36,104 bases of DNA, taken from contig CAJXVJ010000008.1 in NCBI GenBank assembly GCA_913061105.1, positions 1-36,104 on the forward strand. Direction: 5' to 3'. Position 1 is the first letter of the stretch, and each line of letters opens with the position of its first letter. Positions 3,793 to 36,104 of the stretch are shown piece by piece. The notes beneath the pieces are model-generated. The model was not told the origin of the DNA and searched no databases. It saw only the letters and a list, made by a program, of their open reading frames with translations. Source of the DNA: an uncultured Alcanivoracaceae bacterium. GTDB lineage: Bacteria; Pseudomonadota; Gammaproteobacteria; Xanthomonadales; Marinicellaceae. Position numbers and translations under genes: made by a program.

Positions 3793-5217
3793 TTAAGCTA
3801 ATTCTAATATTTGATCTTGAAATACATTTTCATTTTCAGGATTAAACCAAGCCAATTCATTGGCCAATTTTGCTACTTCACCTATGACTATTAATGCTGG
3901 TGATTTAATCTTGTTTTGATCGATTAAGTCAGATAATTCATTTAAGTTTCCACTGATGACTCTTTGATTGTGACAGGTTCCATTTTCAATGATTGCAACA
4001 GGAGTGATTTTTGATAGGCCATTTGATATCAGGTTTTTACTCAGATATTGCGATTTCATTAAGCCCATGTACACAACCAAGGTTTGTTTTTCTTTGGCCA
4101 ATGATGACCAATCAAGGGTATCTATCGAATCTTTACAATGCGCTGTGACAAATACTGTGCTTTGTGCAAAATCTCTGTGGGTTAAGGGAATGCCTGCATA
4201 AGAGGTACATCCTATGGCCGCTGTAATACCAGGAACAATTTGGTATTTTACTCGCGCTTTCTTAAGGGCTTGGATTTCTTCTCCTCCTCTGCCAAATACA
4301 AAGGGATCTCCACCTTTTAGCCTACAAACGCGTTTGCCTTGTTGTGCATGGTCAATTAACAACTGGTTTGTGTCTTTTTGTTCAACACTGTGATGGCCCA
4401 TTGATTTTCCAACATTAATGAGTTCTGCATCGCGTCTGACCAACTCCAATATTTCGGAAGATATTAATCGATCATGAAACACCACATCGGCTTCTTGCAT
4501 CACTCTCAAAGCTTTGATTGTTAATAATTCAGGATCTCCCGGTCCAGCACCGACAAGAAATACCTCTCCTTCATTGTTAGATTCAGGTAATAATTTATTT
4601 ATTAGTTCATGACTATTGGGCTGTAAACCTGTGTCCATGATTCGTGAGCTGATGGATGAATTGAATAATTGTTCCCAGAATTTTTTTCTTTGTAGCAGTG
4701 TTGGTAAAATGTGTTTAACCGAGTCTCTTAATCCGGATGCAAATTTTGCCAGAATTCCGATATTATGTGGAATGGCTTTTTCTATTTTTTCTCTGATTTT
4801 TCTGGCCAAAACAGGCGCTGATCCGCTACTTGATATGGAAACAATAATTGGGTCACGATTAACAATGGCAGGAGATATATAAGTGCACAATTGTTTGTTA
4901 TCGACTGTATTGATTAAAATATTATTTAGTTGAGCTACTTTGTATATGTGGTGTGACAATTTGTCATTATCAGTAGCTGAAATTATTAATCTAAAACTAC
5001 TGAGATTGCTATATTGCAAATAATAAAAGATTTCTTTGTGTATGGTTGTGATATTACCATCTAGATTCTTGATGCTTTCATTTATCCTTTGAGCCACGCA
5101 AAAGACTTGGGCGCCTGCTTTTAATAGCATTTGAATTTTTCTATATGCCACAGGGCCACCACCAAATACAAGGCATTTTTTATTTTTTAAATCAATGTTT
5201 ATTGGCAAATATTCCAT
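3793..5217 (-). CDS. cysG: Siroheme synthase CysG (precorrin-2 dehydrogenase/ferrochelatase + uroporphyrinogen-III C-methyltransferase)
   Basis: 474 aa; N-terminal KKCLVFGGGPVAYRKIQMLLKAGA; C-terminal VFLVGAGPGDPELLTIKALRVMQEADVVFHDRL and GDPFVFGRGGEE. Confidence 0.94.
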   Translation of the reverse strand: MEYLPINIDLKNKKCLVFGGGPVAYRKIQMLLKAGAQVFCVAQRINESIKNLDGNITTIHKEIFYYLQYSNLSSFRLIISATDNDKLSHHIYKVAQLNNILINTVDNKQLCTYISPAIVNRDPIIVSISSSGSAPVLARKIREKIEKAIPHNIGILAKFASGLRDSVKHILPTLLQRKKFWEQLFNSSISSRIMDTGLQPNSHELINKLLPESNNEGEVFLVGAGPGDPELLTIKALRVMQEADVVFHDRLISSEILELVRRDAELINVGKSMGHHSVEQKDTNQLLIDHAQQGKRVCRLKGGDPFVFGRGGEEIQALKKARVKYQIVPGITAAIGCTSYAGIPLTHRDFAQSTVFVTAHCKDSIDTLDWSSLAKEKQTLVVYMGLMKSQYLSKNLISNGLSKITPVAIIENGTCHNQRVISGNLNELSDLIDQNKIKSPALIVIGEVAKLANELAWFNPENENVFQDQILELA

Positions 5218-5312
5218 TGTTATTCTCTATTATTAATTAAGGCCTAACTATAATTTTAATCACTGTACTTATGAAATAATTAATAAATCTGACAATATAA
5301 CAAAAAGTTATT

Positions 5313-5336
5313 GGACGTATAGACGTCTATACTTGC
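5313..5336. promoter_or_regulatory. MetJ operator: tandem met boxes around perfect palindrome GTATAGACGTCTATAC
   Basis: Consensus met box AGACGTCT at 5321-5328 (8/8); upstream 8-mer GGACGTAT at 5313-5320 (6/8); downstream ATACTTGC at 5329-5336 (4/8). metJ lies in the same window. Confidence 0.75.
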
Positions 5337-5386: not shown

Positions 5387-6367
5387 ATGAAATTACAACA
5401 ATTGAGATTTTTTAATGCCATTTGTCAGCACGGCTTAAATGTCACTGCAGCAGCCAGTGCTTTGTTCACGTCACAACCTGGAGTAAGCAGACAAATGCGT
5501 TTATTTGAAGATGAGTTAGGATTGTCTTTGTTTGTCAGAGCGGGCAAAACACTGATATCATTGACACCTGCAGGCGAAGAAATTCTCAAACGTTGCCAAA
5601 AGGTATTAAAAGAAATTGATAATATTAAAGCCATCTCTCAAGATTTAACCAAAGTCACTCAGGGTGTTTTAAATATTTCAACCACACACACACAAGCCAA
5701 ATACGTGTTACCACCGATTATCAAAAAATTTCACGCGCGTTTTCCAGATGTGAAGGTTAATTTACATCAAAGCACCTCTTTAAAAAACATTAAATCAACC
5801 ATAGCGGGTGAATCTGATTTCACCATAGCCTCGGGTGATGATGAATATTGTAAAGGGTTGGTTAAGTTAGATTGTTTTAAATGGCAAAGGTTGATTGTTG
5901 TTCCTAAAAACCATCCATTGGCCAATAAAAAGGAAGTGACAATCAATCAATTAACGCAATATCCTTTGGTAGTTTATGTCTATGATGATCAAGACAATTC
6001 ATCTTTAGTCAAAACATTTAGAAATGCAGGAGTTGAATTCAAAATTGTTTTTACTGCACGTGATTCTGACATCATAAAAACTTATGTTCGTTCGGAAATG
6101 GGGGTAGGCATCATTGCCAGCATGGCCTATGATGAAAAAATTGACAATGATTTAGTGGCCATAGAAACTAAGGAAATATTACCATTGTGTGCGACCTGGA
6201 TTGCGTTTCACCCCAGTTTGTTTTTGAGGAAATTCATGAAAGAGTTTATTGGTTTATTTGCGCCCCATGTAAGCAATGAACAAATAGAGGAATCGGTTAA
6301 CAAAGAAAATGAAAGAATTGATCCACAAAAATCGACTTACCCTATTCATGCCATGTGGCAAATATAA
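5387..6367 (+). CDS. cysB: LysR family regulator, CysB-like
   Basis: 326 aa; MKLQQLRFFNAICQHGLNVTAAASALFTSQPGVSRQMRLFEDELGLSLFVRAGK... THTQAKYVLPPIIKKFHARFPDVKVNLHQ is CysB/Cbl-type; located within cys genes. Confidence 0.85.
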   Translation: MKLQQLRFFNAICQHGLNVTAAASALFTSQPGVSRQMRLFEDELGLSLFVRAGKTLISLTPAGEEILKRCQKVLKEIDNIKAISQDLTKVTQGVLNISTTHTQAKYVLPPIIKKFHARFPDVKVNLHQSTSLKNIKSTIAGESDFTIASGDDEYCKGLVKLDCFKWQRLIVVPKNHPLANKKEVTINQLTQYPLVVYVYDDQDNSSLVKTFRNAGVEFKIVFTARDSDIIKTYVRSEMGVGIIASMAYDEKIDNDLVAIETKEILPLCATWIAFHPSLFLRKFMKEFIGLFAPHVSNEQIEESVNKENERIDPQKSTYPIHAMWQI

Positions 6368-6375
6368 TATTGGTA

Positions 6376-7077
6376 CTAATCATGAATACCACATTCGCGT
6401 TTTAATCCAAAAAAGCGTGTGTCTTCAATATTCATATCACCACTTAAGGGTTTTGAAGTGTGTGTGTCTCCAATGGAAACATAGCCCTTTTCCCACAATG
6501 GGTGATACGGCAGTTTGTGTTTTTTAAGATACTTAAAGATATCTTTGTCATTCCAATCAATGATGGGGTGAATTTTAATGCGATTATTTCTGTACTCAAT
6601 TACTTTTTTATGTTTTCTTGATTCAGACTGTGTGTTTCTGATACCAGAAAACCAAGCATTGACACTTAATTCATTTAAAGCATTATTGAGCGGTGTTACT
6701 TTCATAATATTATTGAATTTATCAATTCCAGTTAGACCTTGTGACCACAATTCTCCGTACCTAGATTCAAACCATGCTGGTGATAATTGGCTTTTATAAA
6801 CTTTTAGATTTAACTTTAAACTCTCACAGAGCTGGTCAATAAATTGATAGGTTTCTGGAAACAAATAACCAGTATCAATAAGTATGACTGGGATGTCTTG
6901 GTATTGTTGGGTTAAAAGGTGTAAACACACTGCCGATTGTGCACCAAAACTTGAGGTCAAAGCAAACGGACCATTGATATGCTTAAGAGCATATTCAATG
7001 CGGGTTTGAGCACTGCTATGGGTTAAATGGTTTTGCAAAAATAACAATGATTCATTGTCATGGATTTTAATGGTCAT
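6376..7077 (-). CDS. cysH: Phosphoadenosine phosphosulfate reductase CysH
   Basis: 233 aa; SSFGAQSAVCLHLL, IDTGYLFPETY, C-terminal ECGIHD; lacks the CC pairs of APS reductases. Confidence 0.93.
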   Translation of the reverse strand: MTIKIHDNESLLFLQNHLTHSSAQTRIEYALKHINGPFALTSSFGAQSAVCLHLLTQQYQDIPVILIDTGYLFPETYQFIDQLCESLKLNLKVYKSQLSPAWFESRYGELWSQGLTGIDKFNNIMKVTPLNNALNELSVNAWFSGIRNTQSESRKHKKVIEYRNNRIKIHPIIDWNDKDIFKYLKKHKLPYHPLWEKGYVSIGDTHTSKPLSGDMNIEDTRFFGLKRECGIHD

Positions 7078-8783
7078 GTTTGTATCTCTAACTGTAGTTG
7101 GTGAACTTGTGACCCGTGAGTTATTGGTTTGACATATTGTTTACGAATAACAAAATCACCAAAATATTCATTGTCTAATGCATTTAAGCCATAATCTTTG
7201 AAAATAATATCCAATTCATTGAGTATTGATTGTTCATTAATGTTTTCTTTGTACAAATGGTTTAATCGGTTGCCAATAAAGCTGCCGCCTAAATAAAGAT
7301 TGTATTTGCCAGGTCCTTTGCCGACAAAACCAATTTCGGCCACAAAAGGTCTAGCACAACCATTTGGGCAACCTGTCATTCGAGTGACTATGGCTCGGTT
7401 AATGATGTTGTGTTTAATCTGAAGTTGTTCAATTTTTTCCAGTAAAAGCGGCAAATACCTTTCGGCTTCAGCCATGGCAAGTGAACAAGTCGGAAAAGCA
7501 ACACAAGCCATGGCATTGTCCTTAAGTTTGGAATGATTACCAAGAACATTGTATTTAGTTAATATTTCTAAAATGAGATTTTTATCTTCAACATTCAATT
7601 TGGCCAATATTAAGTTTTGATTGGCAGTAATTCTAAATTCGCCTCTGTTCAATAAAGCAATCTCCTTTAAAGCGGTCTTAAGTTGGCATGTGTCATTGTT
7701 AGTAATTCTGCCATTTTCAATAAATAAAGTGAGATTTAAACTGCCATCGAAATTTTTTGACCAACCAAATTGATCACCACGACTTGTGAAAATATAAGGT
7801 TTTTCATCTTGTAGTTCACACCCCAGTCGCGTATTTAATTCATTTGTAAACCAATCAATGCCTTTGCTATCAACTGTGTATTTGAACCGTGCTCTTTTAC
7901 GGTTACTTCTTTCACCGAAATCCCTTTGAATTTTTACAACCTGTTCTGCTACATCACAGACTTGACCTGGATAACAAAAACCGATGACTTGTGATAATAA
8001 TGGAAAAGTGGTTTTGTCTCCATGTGTACATCCCATGCCACCGCCTACGGTAACATTAAATCCCAATAGCTTTTCATTTTCAATGATGGCGATAAATCCC
8101 AAATCATGGGCAAAAATATCCACATCATTGGAAGGTGGAATGGCAAGCACAATTTTGAACTTACGTGGCAAGTAGGTTTGACCATAAATGGGTTCATTAT
8201 CAAGGGAGGATAAATGCTTTTGTTTATCTAACCATATTTCGTGATAGGCTGTTGTATTTGGGGTTAAATGTTGACTGATTTTATGTGCTGCATCAACCAC
8301 AGCTCCATGCGCAATTGAAGTGTCAGGGTTGGGTGTACACATGACATTTCGGTTGACATCACCACAAGCTGCGATGGTATCTAGTAATGATTGATTAATA
8401 GAAGCAATGGCGGTTTTTAGGTTCTTCTTTAACACACCATGCAATTGAAAAGCTTGTCGGGTGGTTAACCTGATTGAGTTATTACCGTATTGATTTGCCA
8501 GATCGTCCATCACTAGCCATTGATTAGGAGAGCAGATTCCTCCAGCGACACGTGCACGAATCATAAAGCTGTATTTAGGTTCGAGCATAAGTTTTCTTCT
8601 GGCCACTTGTGAATCGCGGTCTAATTGTTGATATATGCCATGAAATTTAGTTAATTGGGTGTCTTCTTCATCAAGTGATCCTGTTATTTCTTTCTTCAGT
8701 CCATTGGCAATATTACCTCTGAGAAAATTGCTTTTGGATTTGATTAGTTCAACGGCTTCTAATGGTTTGGTATTTTTTTTCAT
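7074..8783 (-). CDS. cysI: Sulfite reductase (NADPH) hemoprotein beta-component CysI
   Basis: 569 aa; LTTRQAFQLHGV, GDVNRNVMCTPNP, NVTVGGGMGCTHG, siroheme/Fe-S cysteine motif TGCPNGCARPFVAEIGFVG; overlaps cysH by 4 nt. Confidence 0.95.
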   Translation of the reverse strand: MKKNTKPLEAVELIKSKSNFLRGNIANGLKKEITGSLDEEDTQLTKFHGIYQQLDRDSQVARRKLMLEPKYSFMIRARVAGGICSPNQWLVMDDLANQYGNNSIRLTTRQAFQLHGVLKKNLKTAIASINQSLLDTIAACGDVNRNVMCTPNPDTSIAHGAVVDAAHKISQHLTPNTTAYHEIWLDKQKHLSSLDNEPIYGQTYLPRKFKIVLAIPPSNDVDIFAHDLGFIAIIENEKLLGFNVTVGGGMGCTHGDKTTFPLLSQVIGFCYPGQVCDVAEQVVKIQRDFGERSNRKRARFKYTVDSKGIDWFTNELNTRLGCELQDEKPYIFTSRGDQFGWSKNFDGSLNLTLFIENGRITNNDTCQLKTALKEIALLNRGEFRITANQNLILAKLNVEDKNLILEILTKYNVLGNHSKLKDNAMACVAFPTCSLAMAEAERYLPLLLEKIEQLQIKHNIINRAIVTRMTGCPNGCARPFVAEIGFVGKGPGKYNLYLGGSFIGNRLNHLYKENINEQSILNELDIIFKDYGLNALDNEYFGDFVIRKQYVKPITHGSQVHQLQLEIQT

Positions 8784-8820: not shown

Positions 8821-10590
8821 TTAATAAACATCTTTTTGATAACGTTTGTTTCTTTTTAAATTGGTTAAATATTGTTTTGCCCCATCTGCATCTAATTTTC
8901 CATGAACTCTTATAAGTGATAAAAGCTCAGTTTCAACTGATTTTGCCATGTGGTCTTTGTTTCCACAGATGTACAGATGAGCGCCTTGTTCTAGCCATTG
9001 CCAAATTTCTTGAGCTTTTTGTTTGACTTTGTGCTGCACGTATATTTTTTGTTCTTGATCGCGAGAAAATGCCAAATCAATCTGAGTTAAGAGGTTTTCT
9101 TTATGGTATTTTTGTAATTCTAGTTGATAAAGAAAATCATTTTCAAAACTGGGATTACCAAATATTAGCCAATTTTCTCCGGCCGCATTTAATTCTTTTC
9201 TTTCTTGAAGAAATCCTCTAAACGGGGCAATGCCTGTGCCTGCAGCAATCATAATAGTTGGGGCATCATTATTTTCAGGCAACTTAAAATTATTGTTGTT
9301 TTCTATATAAATTTCTACATCGTCACCTTCTTTTAAATGGCTGCACAACAATCCACTGACCAATCCTTTATTGGATTTATCTGTAGGAGACTCAACTAAT
9401 GCCACGGTTAGATGAATTTCATCAGGATTTTTGAGATAACTGGATGCTATTGAATAGAGTCTTGGAGAAATCTTATATAAGTTGTCCACCAGTTGCTGTT
9501 CAGTAATGGGAACCTGATATTGGGTGAGTACATCAGATAATTGTCTCTTTTCAACAAAATACTGAAACTGTTGATGATTTTCAATCATGTCATTAAATTT
9601 ATCAGATTGAACTAAGCTGGCATAAAACTTTAAAAACGATTTACTCACTAAGCTGATTTCAAGTGAACGTAACACCGTATTGAATGGTATTTCTTGTTTT
9701 TTATAATTGACAATCTTATTGCCATCAAAATCATTGTTTTGTATAAGAGAATCAATAGCAATTGAGCTATTTTGTGCCATTATGGCCAATGAATCCCCAG
9801 CTTGATAATTGATATCAGAACCCTCAATATCTAACTCAATGTGGTGGACATTTTTAATTGAGGCATCTGTAGTAATTTTTTGCAGAGTTATAATTTCTGA
9901 TGAATAAGTCTTATTTCTATTATATTGACTTAATTGTTTAGGTTTAAGTAATGACAAAGGTGAAACGTTATTATCAATATTGTTTATGTGTTTGGAAAAA
10001 TAATCATTGGTATTATTTTGCCAAGTTTCATAGGATTCTTCATAATCTAAATCACAGTCGATTCGATCAATTACTGGTGTAGCACCTAACTTTTGTAATT
10101 GCAGGTCAATGTCTACACCTGTTTGACAAAACTTTTCATAACTGGAATCTCCCAATGCCAGTAGAGAATATTTTAAGTTTTTCAAATTAGGCGATTTATT
10201 TGAGAACAAATACTCATAAAAAATTTCTGCATCATCAGGTGCATCTCCTTCTCCATGGGTTGAAATGATGATGACAACGTATTGTTCCTTATTAATATTG
10301 CGTGGTTTATAATCAGCCAATGAGATGAGTTGACAATTAATATCAAGCGACTGGCATGTCTGAGTATATTCTTCTGCGAGGCTTCTACAATTTCCAGTTT
10401 GACTGGCATACAAAATGGTTAATTGTTTTTGAGGGTTATTATTGGATTCAATTTTATCCTGTCTTGACAAACCAGCAATAAAACCAGAGACCCACAATAA
10501 TTGATTGGGATCTAAGTCTTGAACCGCAAGGTTGACTTTTTTGAATTGATCTGGTGCCAAAGGTGAAATGGCTTGGTTATTTGAGTACAC
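8821..10590 (-). CDS. cysJ: Sulfite reductase (NADPH) flavoprotein alpha-component CysJ
   Basis: 589 aa; flavodoxin domain (ILYASQTGNCRSLAEEYTQ), PRLYSIASS, GTGIAPFRGFLQER, and C-terminal YQKDVY. Confidence 0.95.
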   Translation of the reverse strand: MYSNNQAISPLAPDQFKKVNLAVQDLDPNQLLWVSGFIAGLSRQDKIESNNNPQKQLTILYASQTGNCRSLAEEYTQTCQSLDINCQLISLADYKPRNINKEQYVVIIISTHGEGDAPDDAEIFYEYLFSNKSPNLKNLKYSLLALGDSSYEKFCQTGVDIDLQLQKLGATPVIDRIDCDLDYEESYETWQNNTNDYFSKHINNIDNNVSPLSLLKPKQLSQYNRNKTYSSEIITLQKITTDASIKNVHHIELDIEGSDINYQAGDSLAIMAQNSSIAIDSLIQNNDFDGNKIVNYKKQEIPFNTVLRSLEISLVSKSFLKFYASLVQSDKFNDMIENHQQFQYFVEKRQLSDVLTQYQVPITEQQLVDNLYKISPRLYSIASSYLKNPDEIHLTVALVESPTDKSNKGLVSGLLCSHLKEGDDVEIYIENNNNFKLPENNDAPTIMIAAGTGIAPFRGFLQERKELNAAGENWLIFGNPSFENDFLYQLELQKYHKENLLTQIDLAFSRDQEQKIYVQHKVKQKAQEIWQWLEQGAHLYICGNKDHMAKSVETELLSLIRVHGKLDADGAKQYLTNLKRNKRYQKDVY

Positions 10591-10615: not shown

Positions 10616-10639
10616 GGCAGTATAGACGTCTATAAATAA
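10616..10639. promoter_or_regulatory. MetJ operator upstream of cysJIH: TATAGACGTCTATA containing the consensus met box
   Basis: AGACGTCT at 10624-10631 (8/8) inside perfect 14-bp palindrome 10621-10634; flanking 8-mers are degenerate. Lies 31-44 nt upstream of the cysJ start, in the metJ-cysJ gap. Confidence 0.72.
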
Positions 10640-10696: not shown

Positions 10697-10978
10697 TTAT
10701 TCAGATTTATCTTTAAATAACATGTTGTCATAGTCATCAGAGTCTTTAGATAAGTTTTCATCTGTTGGAAGTGGTTGTCCCGTATAAGCATGTAAAAATG
10801 CTTCGCACAATAACTCACTATTGGTGGCATGCTTTAAATTTTTTACCTGACGCCTTGTCCTCTCATCGGTGAGTATTTGTAAAACATCACAGGGAATAGA
10901 CACGGTAATCTTTTTAACTTTGCCTTGTTTGTCACCATGTTTGACATAAGGGTTAATGTATTTGCCATTAAAAGCCAT
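10697..10978 (-). CDS. metJ: Methionine repressor MetJ
   Basis: 93 aa; [51 protein letters not shown] is nearly identical to the E. coli MetJ ribbon-helix-helix core recalled from knowledge. Confidence 0.95.
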
Positions 10979-21142: not shown

Positions 21143-24100
21143 ATGTCTTTGACTAGAGCAAAAAGTGTATCATTATTAAACCTATTATTTTTATTTATTT
21201 CATTTGCCTCATATGCAGGAGGACCAATTGGAGCTGATTTAAATATCAATTTTAATTCTAATACAATTGGGCCAGGCTCAAATAGCCAATTAACTTATAC
21301 ATTTACTGGCGTTGGACCTGGAATTGTTACAGACATAGCAGTGACAAATACATTCCCTGCAGCTGTTGTCTTATCGTCGTCAGCTAATCCTGTTAGTGAT
21401 TGTAATGGTGCAGTTGTAACTGCTCCTAATGGGGGCAGTATCGTTACAATTAGTGATATTTCACTGCCAATGGGTTCTTTTTGTACTGTAGTTGTTAATG
21501 TCACCAGTTCAACGCCAGGTGTACATACGAATACTACTGATAATGTTACAACAAGTGAAGGTACAAGCATTTCTGCCACAGACGATTTGACTGTTGTAAC
21601 CGATCGCCCTGGGTTTACAAAAAGTTTTTCACCAAATACAGTTGGTCTGGGTGCACCAAGTACTTTAACTTTTACCATTGATAATACTGCAAATACCAGT
21701 AATGTCACATTTATACAATTTACTGACATGATGCCATCTGGTATGGTTGTGGCCTCCCCATCAGCGGCCTCTACAACATGTGGTGGTCAAACTGTAACTT
21801 TAACTGCTATTTCTGGTTCTGATCAAATTAATTTTCAATCATTTGGTGCTAATTTTGCTGGCTTTGAATCTGTAGTTGCTGGTGCATCATGTGCTATAAC
21901 CGTTGATATTATAGCCGGGGCTGTTGGCCAATTAATCAATCAATCAAGTGATTTGAATGTAAGAATTAATGGAGATTTTACTGATCTAAACAGTGGATTT
22001 GCAATAGATGAGCTTAATGTTAATATTCAAACAGTCATCTTATCTAAAGACTTTGTTGATGATCCCATAGTGCCAAGTGGAACAGGTACCCTTAGATTTA
22101 CCATTCTTAATACAGACAGAAATAATGCCACTAGCAATATGGCATTTATCGATGACTTAAGCGCTGTGTTACCAGGACTTGTAGCAATTGGTTTACCTCA
22201 ATCTAATGTTTGTGGTGCTGGTTCTTCATTAACAGGTTCTGGAATAATCAATTTATCAGGTGGAAACTTACCTCCAGAAGGTGAATGTAGTTTTGATGTG
22301 ACAGTGCAAGTTCCAGCTGCCGCTGGTCAGTACACCAACACGACTTCTAACCTTACTGGAGATTTAAATGGCAGTGGGTTTACATCCAATCCTGCGGTGG
22401 CTGATTTATTTGTTGAACCAGGACCAATCTTAACCAAACAATTTACTGATGATCCAGTTGGTGCAGGCGGAACAGTAAATCTTGAGTTCACTGTTACAAA
22501 TACCAGTACTACAGATATGGCAACAAATATTAGCTTTATTGATGAGTTGACGACTTTTTTGCCATTTCCAGTAGCTGTGACATTACCGACTAATCCTAAC
22601 CCTCCATGTGGTGCCGGATCAGCTATGAGTTTATCGTTTATTAATACTGACAGACAAGGTTTGTTATTAACAGGTGGATCATTGGCTGCTGGTGCTAGTT
22701 GTACATTTTCAGTCGATATCGATATCCCCAATGATTTACCTAATGGAATTTATACCAATACAACCGAAAATCCGACTGCCACTGTTAACGGTGTTACTTA
22801 TAATGGCAAGCCTGCTACGGATGATTTGGTAGTTGTTGCTGCACCGCAATTGAGCAAAGAATTTACAGACGACCCAGTCATTTCGGGAAGTAATGTGACA
22901 TTAGAGTTTACATTAACACATGATGGTTTTGCACCTGCTGATGCCAGTAATATCACATTTACAGATGATTTAAATACGACCTTGGCTGGTTTATCAGCAT
23001 CGGGTTTACCACTAACGGACATTTGTGGTGTTGGATCAAGTATTTCAGGAACAACTAATTTAACTTTCACTGGCGGGCTATTAGCACCAGGTGAAACATG
23101 TACATTTAATGTAACATTGGGTGTACCAGCGAATGCACTATCAGGTCAGTATCCAAATATCACAAGCACAATAACAGCTGATGTCTTGGGTGTTAGTGCT
23201 AATGGGAATCCTGCCTCAGATGTTTTAAATATTGCCAACATCTCTTTCACTAAAGAGTTTTTAGATGATCCAGTTATTCCTGGTGGAAACACATTGCTGA
23301 GATTTACCATCGATAACAGTGCCAATACTCAAGATGCTACAGGGGTGTTTTTTACAGATAATTTAAATGCTACATTAGCAGGATTGTCAAATACTTCAGG
23401 TATGGCTACAGTGAACACCTGTGGTGGTACATTGTCAGGTACTACCTTTTTGATATATGTGGGTGGTAGCGTTACTGCTGGAAGCTCATGCACCATTGAA
23501 GTAGAGTTATTGGTTCCTCCAGGTTCAAGCACTGGTGACTATACAAATATTAGTAGTAGTTTAAACGCGACTATTGGTGGGGGTACTGTTATATTGCCAC
23601 CAGCAATTGACGATTTAATGGTGTCTTCTGATGTTTTATTGTTTTCAAAAGAATTTACTGACGATCCAGTCGCACCTGGAAGTAATGTGACCCTTGAATT
23701 TATCATAGAAAATATTGACCCTAATAATACTGTATCAAATATTGGATTTACCGATGACTTAGATGCAACACTCACTGGATTGGTATTAGATACGCCAATA
23801 TCTAATACATGTGGAGGCATGGGTTCAGGAACATCAGTATTTACATATGCTGGCGGTTCTTTAGCTCCCATGAGCAGTTGTACAATTCAATTAAGTCTGA
23901 TAGTTCCTGCTGGGGCAACCAGTTCAGTTAATACCAATATTACCAATCAAATTACTGGTACAGCAGGTGGTTTACCAGTAAATGGTAATGTGGCAATGGA
24001 TGATTTGTTGGTTAACTTAGTCACATTCAGTAAATCTTTTGATGGTCCAACTACTGCAACTGGTACTCCAGTCTTAACGTATACCATTACAAATTTAGAT

Positions 24101-27100
24101 GCCAGCAATCCAGTTGCTGACCTACAATTTAACGATGATCTTGATGCTGTAGTTTCCGGCTTAGTAGCCACAGGATTACCAGTCAGCAATACTTGTGGTG
24201 TTGGATCGACTGTAGCAGGGACATCATTTTTAACTTTTTCTGGCGGCAATTTACCTGCCAGTGGGTTCTGTGAGTTTATGGTGAACCTTGTTGTACCAAA
24301 CAATGCTACTGCAGGGACATATCCAAGTACCAGTAGTGATTTAACTGTATCTGGTCTTCTAGTTTCTATACCTGCTACAGCTGATTTGGTTATTGAGCCT
24401 GCACCAACTTTTGCTAAATCATTTGCACCTGGTTCCATTGGACTCAATCAAAACAGTACCTTAAGTTTCAGCATCGACAATACAGCCAGTCTGTTATCAG
24501 CAACAGGCTTAGATATGACAGATAACTTACCTGCAGGGATGATTGTGGCATCGCCATCAATCACCACAAATACTTGTGGAGGAACATTGACGGCGACTGC
24601 TGGTACTGGTGTTATCAGTTTAACCAATGGTTCTGTTGCGGTAATGGGCAGTTGTAATTTACAAGTAGACGTTATTGGTACAGCTGTGGGTATGTTAGTT
24701 AATACCACAGGTGATTTAACCTCCAGTTCGGGAAATAGTGGGACAGCCAATGATACATTGTTGGTTAATCCACAACCTGGATTTAGTAAATCATTTGCAC
24801 CAGATCCAGTGTTTATCGGAGGCATCAGTATATTAACCTTTAATATTGATAATTCTGCCAGTACCGTTGTGACAACAGCGCTAAACTTTACGGATACTTT
24901 GCCTGCAGGATTGGCTGTTTCGACACCCAGTAATGCGACCACAACTTGTACGGGCGGTATCTTAACAGCGGTTCCTGCCTCTACAATGATTACTTATGCC
25001 TCAGGGTCGGTTAACAATGCCGTTTCTTGTACTGTTAGTGTAGATGTTGTGGCTGTTTCAGCGGGTAATTTGATGAATGTATCAGGTGATCTGACTTCCT
25101 CGTTAGGAAATAGTGGCAATGCCACAGATACAATAGTAGTCAATCCTCCACCGACTTTTGTTAAGGTATTTAATCCAGATGTTATTATTCCAAATGGTGT
25201 AAGTAATTTGACATTTACTATTGATAATACAGTCAGCACTGTTAATGCAACTGGCATTGATTTTACTGATAATTTACCAGTGGACCTATCAGTTGCAACT
25301 CCTTCCAATATTGCCAATACTTGTACTGATGGCACATTAACAGCTGTATCTGGCACAACAGTAATCAGTTACTCTGGTGGTACACTTAATTCAGGAGTCA
25401 CTTGTTTGATTTCAGTTGATGTGACATCATCAACAGTGGGTAATCACATGAATTTGACAGGTGATTTGACTTCAAATCATGGTAATAGTGGCCCAGCAAT
25501 GGCCAACTTGTTGGTAACTAATACACCAGTATTTAGCAAAGCATTTACCAATATCAATGATGTTATTAACAATCCAAACACATTAACATTTAGCATAAAT
25601 AATAGCGCAAATAATAATGCTATTGGAGGATTAGGTTTTACTGATAATATGCCAGCTGGCTTTACTGTTGCCAACCCTGCTAATATAACCAATACGTGTA
25701 CTGGAGGAACCATTACTGCTGCAAGTTCTAGTACTTCTATTATTTATAGTGGAGGCTCAGTAGCTGCTAATTTAACTTGTACTATTTCTGTTGATGTAAT
25801 CGCATCAATGACTGGACAATTTACAAATACCACCTCTGTTCTTTTGACAGAATTAGGAAATGGTAATGTGGCAACAGCTGATATCACCATTAGTTCTGTA
25901 CCTTTGTTTGCAAAATCCTTTGTGCCAAATATTATCGCCCCAGGAGGTGTAAGTACATTAAGTTTTGTTATCGATAATACTGCAAATGTTATAGATACGA
26001 ATAATTTTGCTTTTGTTGATAATTTCCCTGCAGGTTTAACTGTAGCTCCAGTAGCAAATATTGCAAACACTTGTGTCAGTGCTACAATCACAGCTGTTAC
26101 TGGGTCAGGTTCAATTACAGTTTCAAATGGCACGGTTGCAGCTAATAGTACTTGTCAGATCAGTGTTGACGTAACCAGCACCACTTCTGGCTTTTATACC
26201 AATGTAACAGGAGACTTAACATCTGATGCGGGTAATAGCGGAACAGCTACAGCAGACTTAAATGTTACAGGTGGTTTAACTTTTAATAAAACTTATGCAA
26301 GTTTTGTGACTCCAGGTGGCAATGTAACATTGAGTTTCTTAATTGAAAATACAACCAATACAGATGCTGACAATATATCATTCTCTGATAATCTTGGTGC
26401 AGTGATATCTGCTAATGCTATAAACCTACCATTAGATAATATTTGTGGAGTGGGTTCACAAATGACAGGGTCACCAGGAGGATTGATTCAGTTTACTAAC
26501 GGGTCATTGGTTTCAGGTGACAGTTGTCAAATTGATGTCGTTGTTCAAATAGATCCATCTGTATTACCGGGTGTATATACCAATACAACCAGTCCATTGA
26601 CTGCTGAATTTAATTCAAATGTCATTGTTACGGGACCAGCTTCGGATGATTTTACTGTAGTGGCTGCTCCAGTGATTAATAAGTCATTCCAAGGTGGCAC
26701 GATTACTGCTGGTGACACGATTGAACTGACTTTCAGTATCACTAACAATGCGCCAGTTGAAGCCACACAAATTTCATTCAGTGATGATTTAAATGCCTTT
26801 ATTGCAGGCAGTACTGGAGTCAACTTACCGCAAAATGATGTATGTGGAGTTGGATCTAGTATTTCGGGTACTTCAACATTGTTATTCCAAAATGGTACAT
26901 TGGCGGCAAATTCAAGTTGTCAATTTAGTGTATTCATTACCATACCTATGAACACATCTACTAGCCAATATGTCAATGTTACAAGCGCTTCATCCGCAAA
27001 CTATAGTGGTCTCAATGTGGTAGGTGGCAACCAATCAATTGGTAGCGCTACCTTGATAGTAAACGGTTTTGTCTATCAAGTACCTCTGTTTGATAACTGG

Positions 27101-27178
27101 ATTTCAATAAGCTTACTATTAATCTTAATGTTAATTGTAGCCAATGTTTATTATTACAGGATCAAGAAGTCTTTATAA
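21143..27178 (+). CDS. Giant secreted DUF11/DUF7933-like repeat protein (about 15 repeats) with C-terminal IPTL-CTERM-like sorting signal variant
   Basis: 2011 aa; N-terminal signal; repeat starts such as FSKEFTDDPVAPGSNVTLEF / FAKSFAPGSIGLNQNSTLSFSIDNTAS; C-terminus VYQVPLFDNWISISLLLILMLIVANVYYYRIKKSL. Confidence 0.82.
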   Translation: MSLTRAKSVSLLNLLFLFISFASYAGGPIGADLNINFNSNTIGPGSNSQLTYTFTGVGPGIVTDIAVTNTFPAAVVLSSSANPVSDCNGAVVTAPNGGSIVTISDISLPMGSFCTVVVNVTSSTPGVHTNTTDNVTTSEGTSISATDDLTVVTDRPGFTKSFSPNTVGLGAPSTLTFTIDNTANTSNVTFIQFTDMMPSGMVVASPSAASTTCGGQTVTLTAISGSDQINFQSFGANFAGFESVVAGASCAITVDIIAGAVGQLINQSSDLNVRINGDFTDLNSGFAIDELNVNIQTVILSKDFVDDPIVPSGTGTLRFTILNTDRNNATSNMAFIDDLSAVLPGLVAIGLPQSNVCGAGSSLTGSGIINLSGGNLPPEGECSFDVTVQVPAAAGQYTNTTSNLTGDLNGSGFTSNPAVADLFVEPGPILTKQFTDDPVGAGGTVNLEFTVTNTSTTDMATNISFIDELTTFLPFPVAVTLPTNPNPPCGAGSAMSLSFINTDRQGLLLTGGSLAAGASCTFSVDIDIPNDLPNGIYTNTTENPTATVNGVTYNGKPATDDLVVVAAPQLSKEFTDDPVISGSNVTLEFTLTHDGFAPADASNITFTDDLNTTLAGLSASGLPLTDICGVGSSISGTTNLTFTGGLLAPGETCTFNVTLGVPANALSGQYPNITSTITADVLGVSANGNPASDVLNIANISFTKEFLDDPVIPGGNTLLRFTIDNSANTQDATGVFFTDNLNATLAGLSNTSGMATVNTCGGTLSGTTFLIYVGGSVTAGSSCTIEVELLVPPGSSTGDYTNISSSLNATIGGGTVILPPAIDDLMVSSDVLLFSKEFTDDPVAPGSNVTLEFIIENIDPNNTVSNIGFTDDLDATLTGLVLDTPISNTCGGMGSGTSVFTYAGGSLAPMSSCTIQLSLIVPAGATSSVNTNITNQITGTAGGLPVNGNVAMDDLLVNLVTFSKSFDGPTTATGTPVLTYTITNLDASNPVADLQFNDDLDAVVSGLVATGLPVSNTCGVGSTVAGTSFLTFSGGNLPASGFCEFMVNLVVPNNATAGTYPSTSSDLTVSGLLVSIPATADLVIEPAPTFAKSFAPGSIGLNQNSTLSFSIDNTASLLSATGLDMTDNLPAGMIVASPSITTNTCGGTLTATAGTGVISLTNGSVAVMGSCNLQVDVIGTAVGMLVNTTGDLTSSSGNSGTANDTLLVNPQPGFSKSFAPDPVFIGGISILTFNIDNSASTVVTTALNFTDTLPAGLAVSTPSNATTTCTGGILTAVPASTMITYASGSVNNAVSCTVSVDVVAVSAGNLMNVSGDLTSSLGNSGNATDTIVVNPPPTFVKVFNPDVIIPNGVSNLTFTIDNTVSTVNATGIDFTDNLPVDLSVATPSNIANTCTDGTLTAVSGTTVISYSGGTLNSGVTCLISVDVTSSTVGNHMNLTGDLTSNHGNSGPAMANLLVTNTPVFSKAFTNINDVINNPNTLTFSINNSANNNAIGGLGFTDNMPAGFTVANPANITNTCTGGTITAASSSTSIIYSGGSVAANLTCTISVDVIASMTGQFTNTTSVLLTELGNGNVATADITISSVPLFAKSFVPNIIAPGGVSTLSFVIDNTANVIDTNNFAFVDNFPAGLTVAPVANIANTCVSATITAVTGSGSITVSNGTVAANSTCQISVDVTSTTSGFYTNVTGDLTSDAGNSGTATADLNVTGGLTFNKTYASFVTPGGNVTLSFLIENTTNTDADNISFSDNLGAVISANAINLPLDNICGVGSQMTGSPGGLIQFTNGSLVSGDSCQIDVVVQIDPSVLPGVYTNTTSPLTAEFNSNVIVTGPASDDFTVVAAPVINKSFQGGTITAGDTIELTFSITNNAPVEATQISFSDDLNAFIAGSTGVNLPQNDVCGVGSSISGTSTLLFQNGTLAANSSCQFSVFITIPMNTSTSQYVNVTSASSANYSGLNVVGGNQSIGSATLIVNGFVYQVPLFDNWISISLLLILMLIVANVYYYRIKKSL

Positions 27179-35900: not shown

Positions 35901-36082
35901 GTTTAGTATGTTGCAGTGCTTTGTGGTCTATTAATTTTTTATTATTATTGCGAACTTTACTTATGATGGCGAATGAATTTTCAATTTTTTTATCTTGGTT
36001 TTGTAATAATTCATTCAGTTTTTTTGACTTCTCTTGTTCAGATGATAATTGGAGTTTAATTAATTTGATTTCCTTGTTATTC
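32923..36082 (-). CDS. Large multidomain glycosyltransferase, 5' truncated (coiled coil + ALEHF-type helical motif + GWA-like beta domain + GT4); ORF N-terminus MCIRDR is adapter-derived
   Basis: C-terminal VLLSLGTVSSRKGQLDFVKALPNIL...VFVFTSRIESFPRVILEAMYFSLPIVTTPCFG (GT4); middle SEYLENNDDVNQAILDGQFINALEHFILFGYLE and ISGWIFSIESTSQHSVVELLLVIND. Confidence 0.8.
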
Positions 36083-36104
36083 CTGTCTCTTATACACATC
36101 TCCG
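36083..36104 (-). other. Illumina Nextera i7-side adapter (Tn5 mosaic end + CCG); not biological
   Basis: ctgtctcttatacacatct + ccg is the start of the Nextera Read-2 adapter complement (CTGTCTCTTATACACATCTCCGAGCCC...). Confidence 0.99.

Follow-up and report, generated by a model that had tools for sequence, protein, structure and literature searches.

A putative MetJ operator in the cysG/cysB divergent promoter of a Marinicellaceae genome, with a second copy upstream of cysJIH

In E. coli, cysJIH and cysG lie beside or under a CysB-type activator. The stretch of DNA analysed here (36,104 nucleotides, hereafter the window), which derives from a 3.6 Mb MAG of the family Marinicellaceae, is similar in having these genes near a cysB gene and in carrying a LysR-type dyad in the divergent cysG/cysB promoter. 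It differs in that a sequence resembling an operator of the methionine repressor MetJ is found beside the dyad, and SAM would thus act alongside the cysteine-pathway signal. Does this sequence place the reduction of sulfate under a SAM-dependent repressor? We propose, with a probability of roughly 0.87, that positions 5313-5336 are a MetJ operator, and that SAM-loaded MetJ would repress cysJIH, cysG and cysB together with metX-metB, on top of the activation by CysB.

The cys/met gene cluster and its candidate operators

The features of the cluster are reported in Table 1. The initial annotation had named the two genes flanking the site cysG and cysB: the CysG product scores well above the cut-off of its family, and NF009326 is the top family for the CysB product, with 375 bits, under the equivalog cut-off of 436. 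Similarly, TIGR01931 is the top family for the cysJ product, with 659.9 bits against a cut-off of 668. The gap between the start codons of cysG (5217) and cysB (5387) is 169 bp. The metJ gene, previously placed about 5 kb away in the same cluster, lies indeed ~5.4 kb from the operator, and the genome search returned one match, making it single-copy in the source genome. The DNA- and SAM-binding regions are conserved in its product: the segment KKITVSIP, which we take to be the DNA-contacting strand, and a 15-residue stretch, presumably part of the SAM-binding region, are both identical to those of E. coli MetJ.

Table 1. Coordinates of the genes and putative regulatory sites of the cluster within the window
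Feature	Position	Strand	Basis
cysG, siroheme synthase, putative MetJ target	3793..5217	-	NF007922, 598 bits, cut-off 400
ATAAC-N5-GTTAT dyad, LysR-type, beside operator 1	5297..5311	.	second conserved block in intergenic alignment
Putative MetJ operator 1, cysG/cysB divergent promoter	5313..5336	.	GGACGTAT-AGACGTCT-ATACTTGC, 18/24 vs tandem consensus
cysB, LysR-type sulfate-assimilation activator, putative MetJ target	5387..6367	+	CysB NF009326; LysR domains
cysH, PAPS reductase, putative target via cysJIH operon	6376..7077	-	NF002537, 272.6 bits, cut-off 154
cysI, sulfite reductase hemoprotein, putative target	7074..8783	-	NF010029, 779 bits, cut-off 457
cysJ, sulfite reductase flavoprotein, putative target	8821..10590	-	TIGR01931
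Putative MetJ operator 2, upstream of cysJIH	10617..10634	-	same rare 10-mer as operator 1
metJ	10697..10978	-	NF003622, 149.7 bits, cut-off 110; PF01340, 138 bits

Operator 1 is composed of three boxes in a tandem 8-bp register, GGACGTAT (5313-5320), AGACGTCT (5321-5328) and ATACTTGC (5329-5336), which match the met box at 6/8, 8/8 and 4/8 positions, respectively. The perfect 16-bp palindrome GTATAGACGTCTATAC (5317-5332), one of three such palindromes in the window, is centred on the met box AGACGTCT. The sequence and coordinates given in the initial annotation were exact; of the three boxes, only one is perfect.

Compared with three tandem copies of AGACGTCT, the 24-mer scores 18/24, the top score of the whole window. 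This value was attained by none of 100 dinucleotide-shuffled windows (maximum 17), nor by any shuffle of the 169-bp gap (n = 2000); for scale, the score is 19-21/24 for the canonical operators upstream of metJ in Vibrio, Shewanella and Gilliamella and at most 16/24 for shuffled upstream regions. Each site contains a single perfect 8-bp box. The bare 8-mer, allowing up to one mismatch, occurs in the window at chance level (4 found vs 4.4 expected), so the weight rests on the 16-24-bp context and on conservation.

A second box, missed by the initial annotation, is located between metJ and cysJ and widens the claim beyond cysG/cysB to cysJIH. Its core is the 14-bp TATAGACGTCTATA (10621-10634), ~30 bp ahead of the cysJ start; alone it scores 15/24, inside the range of the shuffled windows. 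In the 3.6-Mb genome, TAGACGTCTA has three copies: one in the cysG/cysB promoter, one in the cysJ promoter (10623) and one in a coding sequence. The motif also marks a methionine locus of this genome, with the one-mismatch copy GTATAGAAGTCTAAAC ahead of a metX-like gene and the metB-like gene behind it (contig C20), and it precedes metX-metB in Marinicella too. These searches used sequence patterns rather than a weight matrix. Most other one- and two-mismatch copies genome-wide fall within coding regions, and one candidate (C220:998) was rejected as a further operator site as it sits within an ORF. In seven genomes of the family, a longer operator pattern was used, and all but one of its matches with up to two mismatches were located at cysG/cysB, cysJ, metX-metB and msrA. 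In one Marinicella genome, a met box lies ahead of a methionine sulfoxide reductase (PMSR) gene (G020:C3:227772, L276); msrA has been reported as a MetJ target in Shewanella (PMC4239095).

Sigma-70 scans of the cysG/cysB and cysJ promoters of the window gave chance-level matches only, none of them overlapping the boxes.

Conservation in genomes with and without metJ

The initial annotation had suggested looking for the box in orthologous intergenic regions, with a lack of conservation counting against the proposal; the box passed this check. The upstream region of cysB could be read in 13 metJ-carrying genomes: eleven Marinicellaceae (the named relatives being Marinicella species), SZUA-51, which is a close relative of the window, and the window itself. 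The box is present upstream of cysB in 13/13, with scores of 16-18/24; as the compared genomes are related, these counts are not independent. Conversely, five order-mates that carry cysB and not metJ score 11-12/24 at cysB, chance level in 5/5, and 11-13/24 at cysJ. The box is conserved with metJ and missing in these order-mates without it. The alignment of 11 cysG/cysB gaps revealed two conserved blocks, ATATAACAAAAAGTTAT and the met box, within otherwise diverged sequence (best 16-mer identity 0.93, mean 0.42). This conserved footprint, together with a tandem score above those of the shuffles, supports the annotation of the site as a MetJ operator.

A TAG(A/C)C(A/G)TCTA-type box is present at the aligned position in 13/13 cysJ promoters that could be assessed in the family and in SZUA-51. 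One of these genomes (G028, a MAG with a completeness of 91%) keeps the cysJ box, and metJ was not detected in it. In many relatives, the box is flanked by TTCACA and TAAACT at a spacing of 17 bp, as read by eye, and there the cysJ operator would extend over the spacer and the -10.

Outside the family, the cysJ box was found in all five Kangiella genomes and in all three from SAR92/Porticoccaceae, and the cysB box in most Kangiellaceae/SAR92 loci. A met box is also present at the metJ promoters of Kangiella. Two Aliikangiella and a related Kangiellaceae MAG have the box upstream of cysB and none at cysJ, and Kangiella spongicola gave no cysB box and no cysI match. The cysJ box is absent in eight metJ-carrying genomes of Shewanella, Vibrio, Aliivibrio, Grimontia, Enterovibrio and Ferrimonas. 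In two order-mates of family f12, which have a divergent MetJ, a met-box-like sequence precedes cysJ (15-16/24).

Alternative explanations and proposed regulation

The strongest alternative, possible although clearly short of even odds, is that MetJ binds the site and serves one side only (cysG, or cysG-cysM in relatives), cysB being an unaffected neighbour. Coherently with this, wherever cysG is the neighbour the box lies at a constant 105-110 bp from its start, and the distance to cysB is variable. However, in two genomes cysG is relocated behind cysJIH, its place as the divergent neighbour of cysB is taken by a cysteine-synthase-type gene, and both conserved blocks are kept upstream of cysB; the box does not follow cysG. 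The cysteine synthase gene in this divergent arrangement is a possible alternative target to cysB.

It is far less probable that the palindrome is a site of CysB, or of another LysR-type regulator of the cluster, with an incidental likeness to the met box. Its occurrence in a cys divergent promoter and again at cysJIH, which are classical CysB targets, would fit such a site, but the palindrome is absent at cysB and cysJ of the order-mates that have cysB and cysJIH and no metJ. Moreover, the same motif lies ahead of metX-metB and msrA, a distinct LysR-type dyad is kept next to the palindrome, and the motif fits the met box, as at the Kangiella metJ promoters. We rejected this explanation on conservation. 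A chance likeness in an AT-rich genome, which agrees with the chance-level count of one-mismatch 8-mers, was rejected as having a negligible probability, contradicted by the shuffles, the rarity of the motif in the genome, its recurrence at linked promoters and the conserved footprint.

Returning to the MetJ operator, we infer the following regulation. When SAM is plentiful, SAM-loaded MetJ would occupy the met boxes of the cysG/cysB gap as well as the one ahead of cysJIH, and the genes for sulfite reductase, PAPS reductase, siroheme synthase and the activator CysB would be expressed less, as would metX-metB. When SAM drops, the block would be released and CysB, at the adjacent ATAAC-N5-GTTAT dyad, would activate transcription. 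CysB probably binds at this dyad, and transcription that depends on CysB may thus be blocked by MetJ or face competition from it. With both the MetJ block and the CysB activation, the reduction of sulfur would be gated by the end product SAM plus the classical cysteine-pathway signal, and sulfur uptake is probably coupled to the methionine/SAM level in the bacteria that carry the cys boxes.

The known MetJ regulon, studied in Enterobacterales, Pasteurellales, Vibrionales, Aeromonadales and Alteromonadales (PMC3228920, PMC4239095), shares with the window the repressor family, the AGACGTCT box, the 8-bp register and, as in the genome of the window, metX-metB as a methionine gene target. Unlike that regulon, the window has the operator at the promoters of sulfite/PAPS reductase, siroheme synthase and cysB. 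Augustus and Spicer 2011, whose survey covered Kangiella koreensis, stated that met boxes are apparently never found on cysteine-metabolism genes (PMC3228920), a claim with which our results conflict; no sulfate-reduction target is named in the main text of Leyn et al. (2014; PMC4239095). We found no report of this MetJ control of sulfate-reduction genes, either for cysJIH or in Marinicella or Kangiella, in a search that had subscription journals, supplementary tables and RegPrecise outside its scope. In Corynebacterium, McbR is reported as a single repressor over methionine and cysteine biosynthesis genes (PMC4239095); it is TetR-type, SAH-responsive and unrelated to MetJ, and its likeness to the window is in logic alone.

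The sequence comparison thus supports a MetJ regulon that is extended, in a lineage-specific manner, to the genes of sulfite reductase, siroheme and CysB/cysteine synthase; this would shift the reach of the SAM repressor from the synthesis of methionine to the entry of reduced sulfur. For the cultivated marine genera Marinicella and Kangiella, it predicts that sulfite reductase is controlled by two inputs, SAM and the cysteine-pathway signal.

Distribution of metJ and other features of the window

The metJ gene was found in 13/33 genomes of the family. The cysB gene is present in 12 of the 13 metJ-carrying genomes and in none of the 20 others (Fisher 4e-8), and cysI in 12/13 and 1/20, respectively (Fisher 5e-7), these counts being phylogenetically non-independent. 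MetJ and sulfate reduction were gained or lost together; the counts say nothing on the regulation of one by the other. About 20 of the 33 family genomes (f1, G001-G032), including all ten congeners of the window, are without metJ, cysB and, bar one, cysI. This suggests that assimilatory sulfate reduction was lost, or was recently acquired by the lineage of the window. No intact metJ was found in the ten congeners, with one very weak match containing internal stops.

Physical clustering of metJ with cys genes was seen in three families. In SZUA-51, metJ-cysJ-cysI-cysH is followed by a cysteine-synthase-type gene, cysG, a box, cysB, another box and a metB-like gene; one MAG each of Kangiella and Porticoccaceae has metJ, a cysteine-synthase-type gene, cysG, cysB, cysH, cysI and cysJ within ~10 kb. 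As a tentative proposal, to which we give somewhat less than even odds, metJ-cysJIH-cysG-cysteine synthase-cysB-metB could be one travelling module in Marinicellaceae, Kangiella and SAR92, with SAM-MetJ above CysB. If so, methionine sufficiency would shut off the entire reductive sulfur pathway, its own activator included; to our knowledge, such a hierarchy has not been described for E. coli. An even class-wide draw contained metJ in 3/276 genomes, and given this sparseness the wider distribution was traced via named metJ loci.

In the MetJ tree, the window groups firmly with the isolate SZUA-51 only, and the family is set apart from the order-mates of families f11 and f12, whose MetJ is divergent; with ~90 columns, the resolution of the tree is too poor for dating a transfer. 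This second clade within the same order (L074-L079) has 61-72% identity. Most Marinicella metJ genes (L064, L066, L068, L071, L072) have a half-conserved met box, TAGACGTTTATATGGCT, across the start codon, which suggests autoregulation. The metJ gene of the window lacks this box, a point against the operator reading.

A Nextera (Tn5 mosaic-end) adapter is present at both contig ends (AGATGTGTATAAGAGACAG in 1-50 and CTGTCTCTTATACACATCT in 36080-36104). As a result, two ORFs contain artefactual residues: the first ones of the ORF at 34, and the N-terminal MCIRDR of the ORF ending at 36099. Finally, positions 21143-27178 contain an ORF of 2011 aa with many similar repeats and a C-terminal hydrophobic segment, features that point to a likely surface protein.
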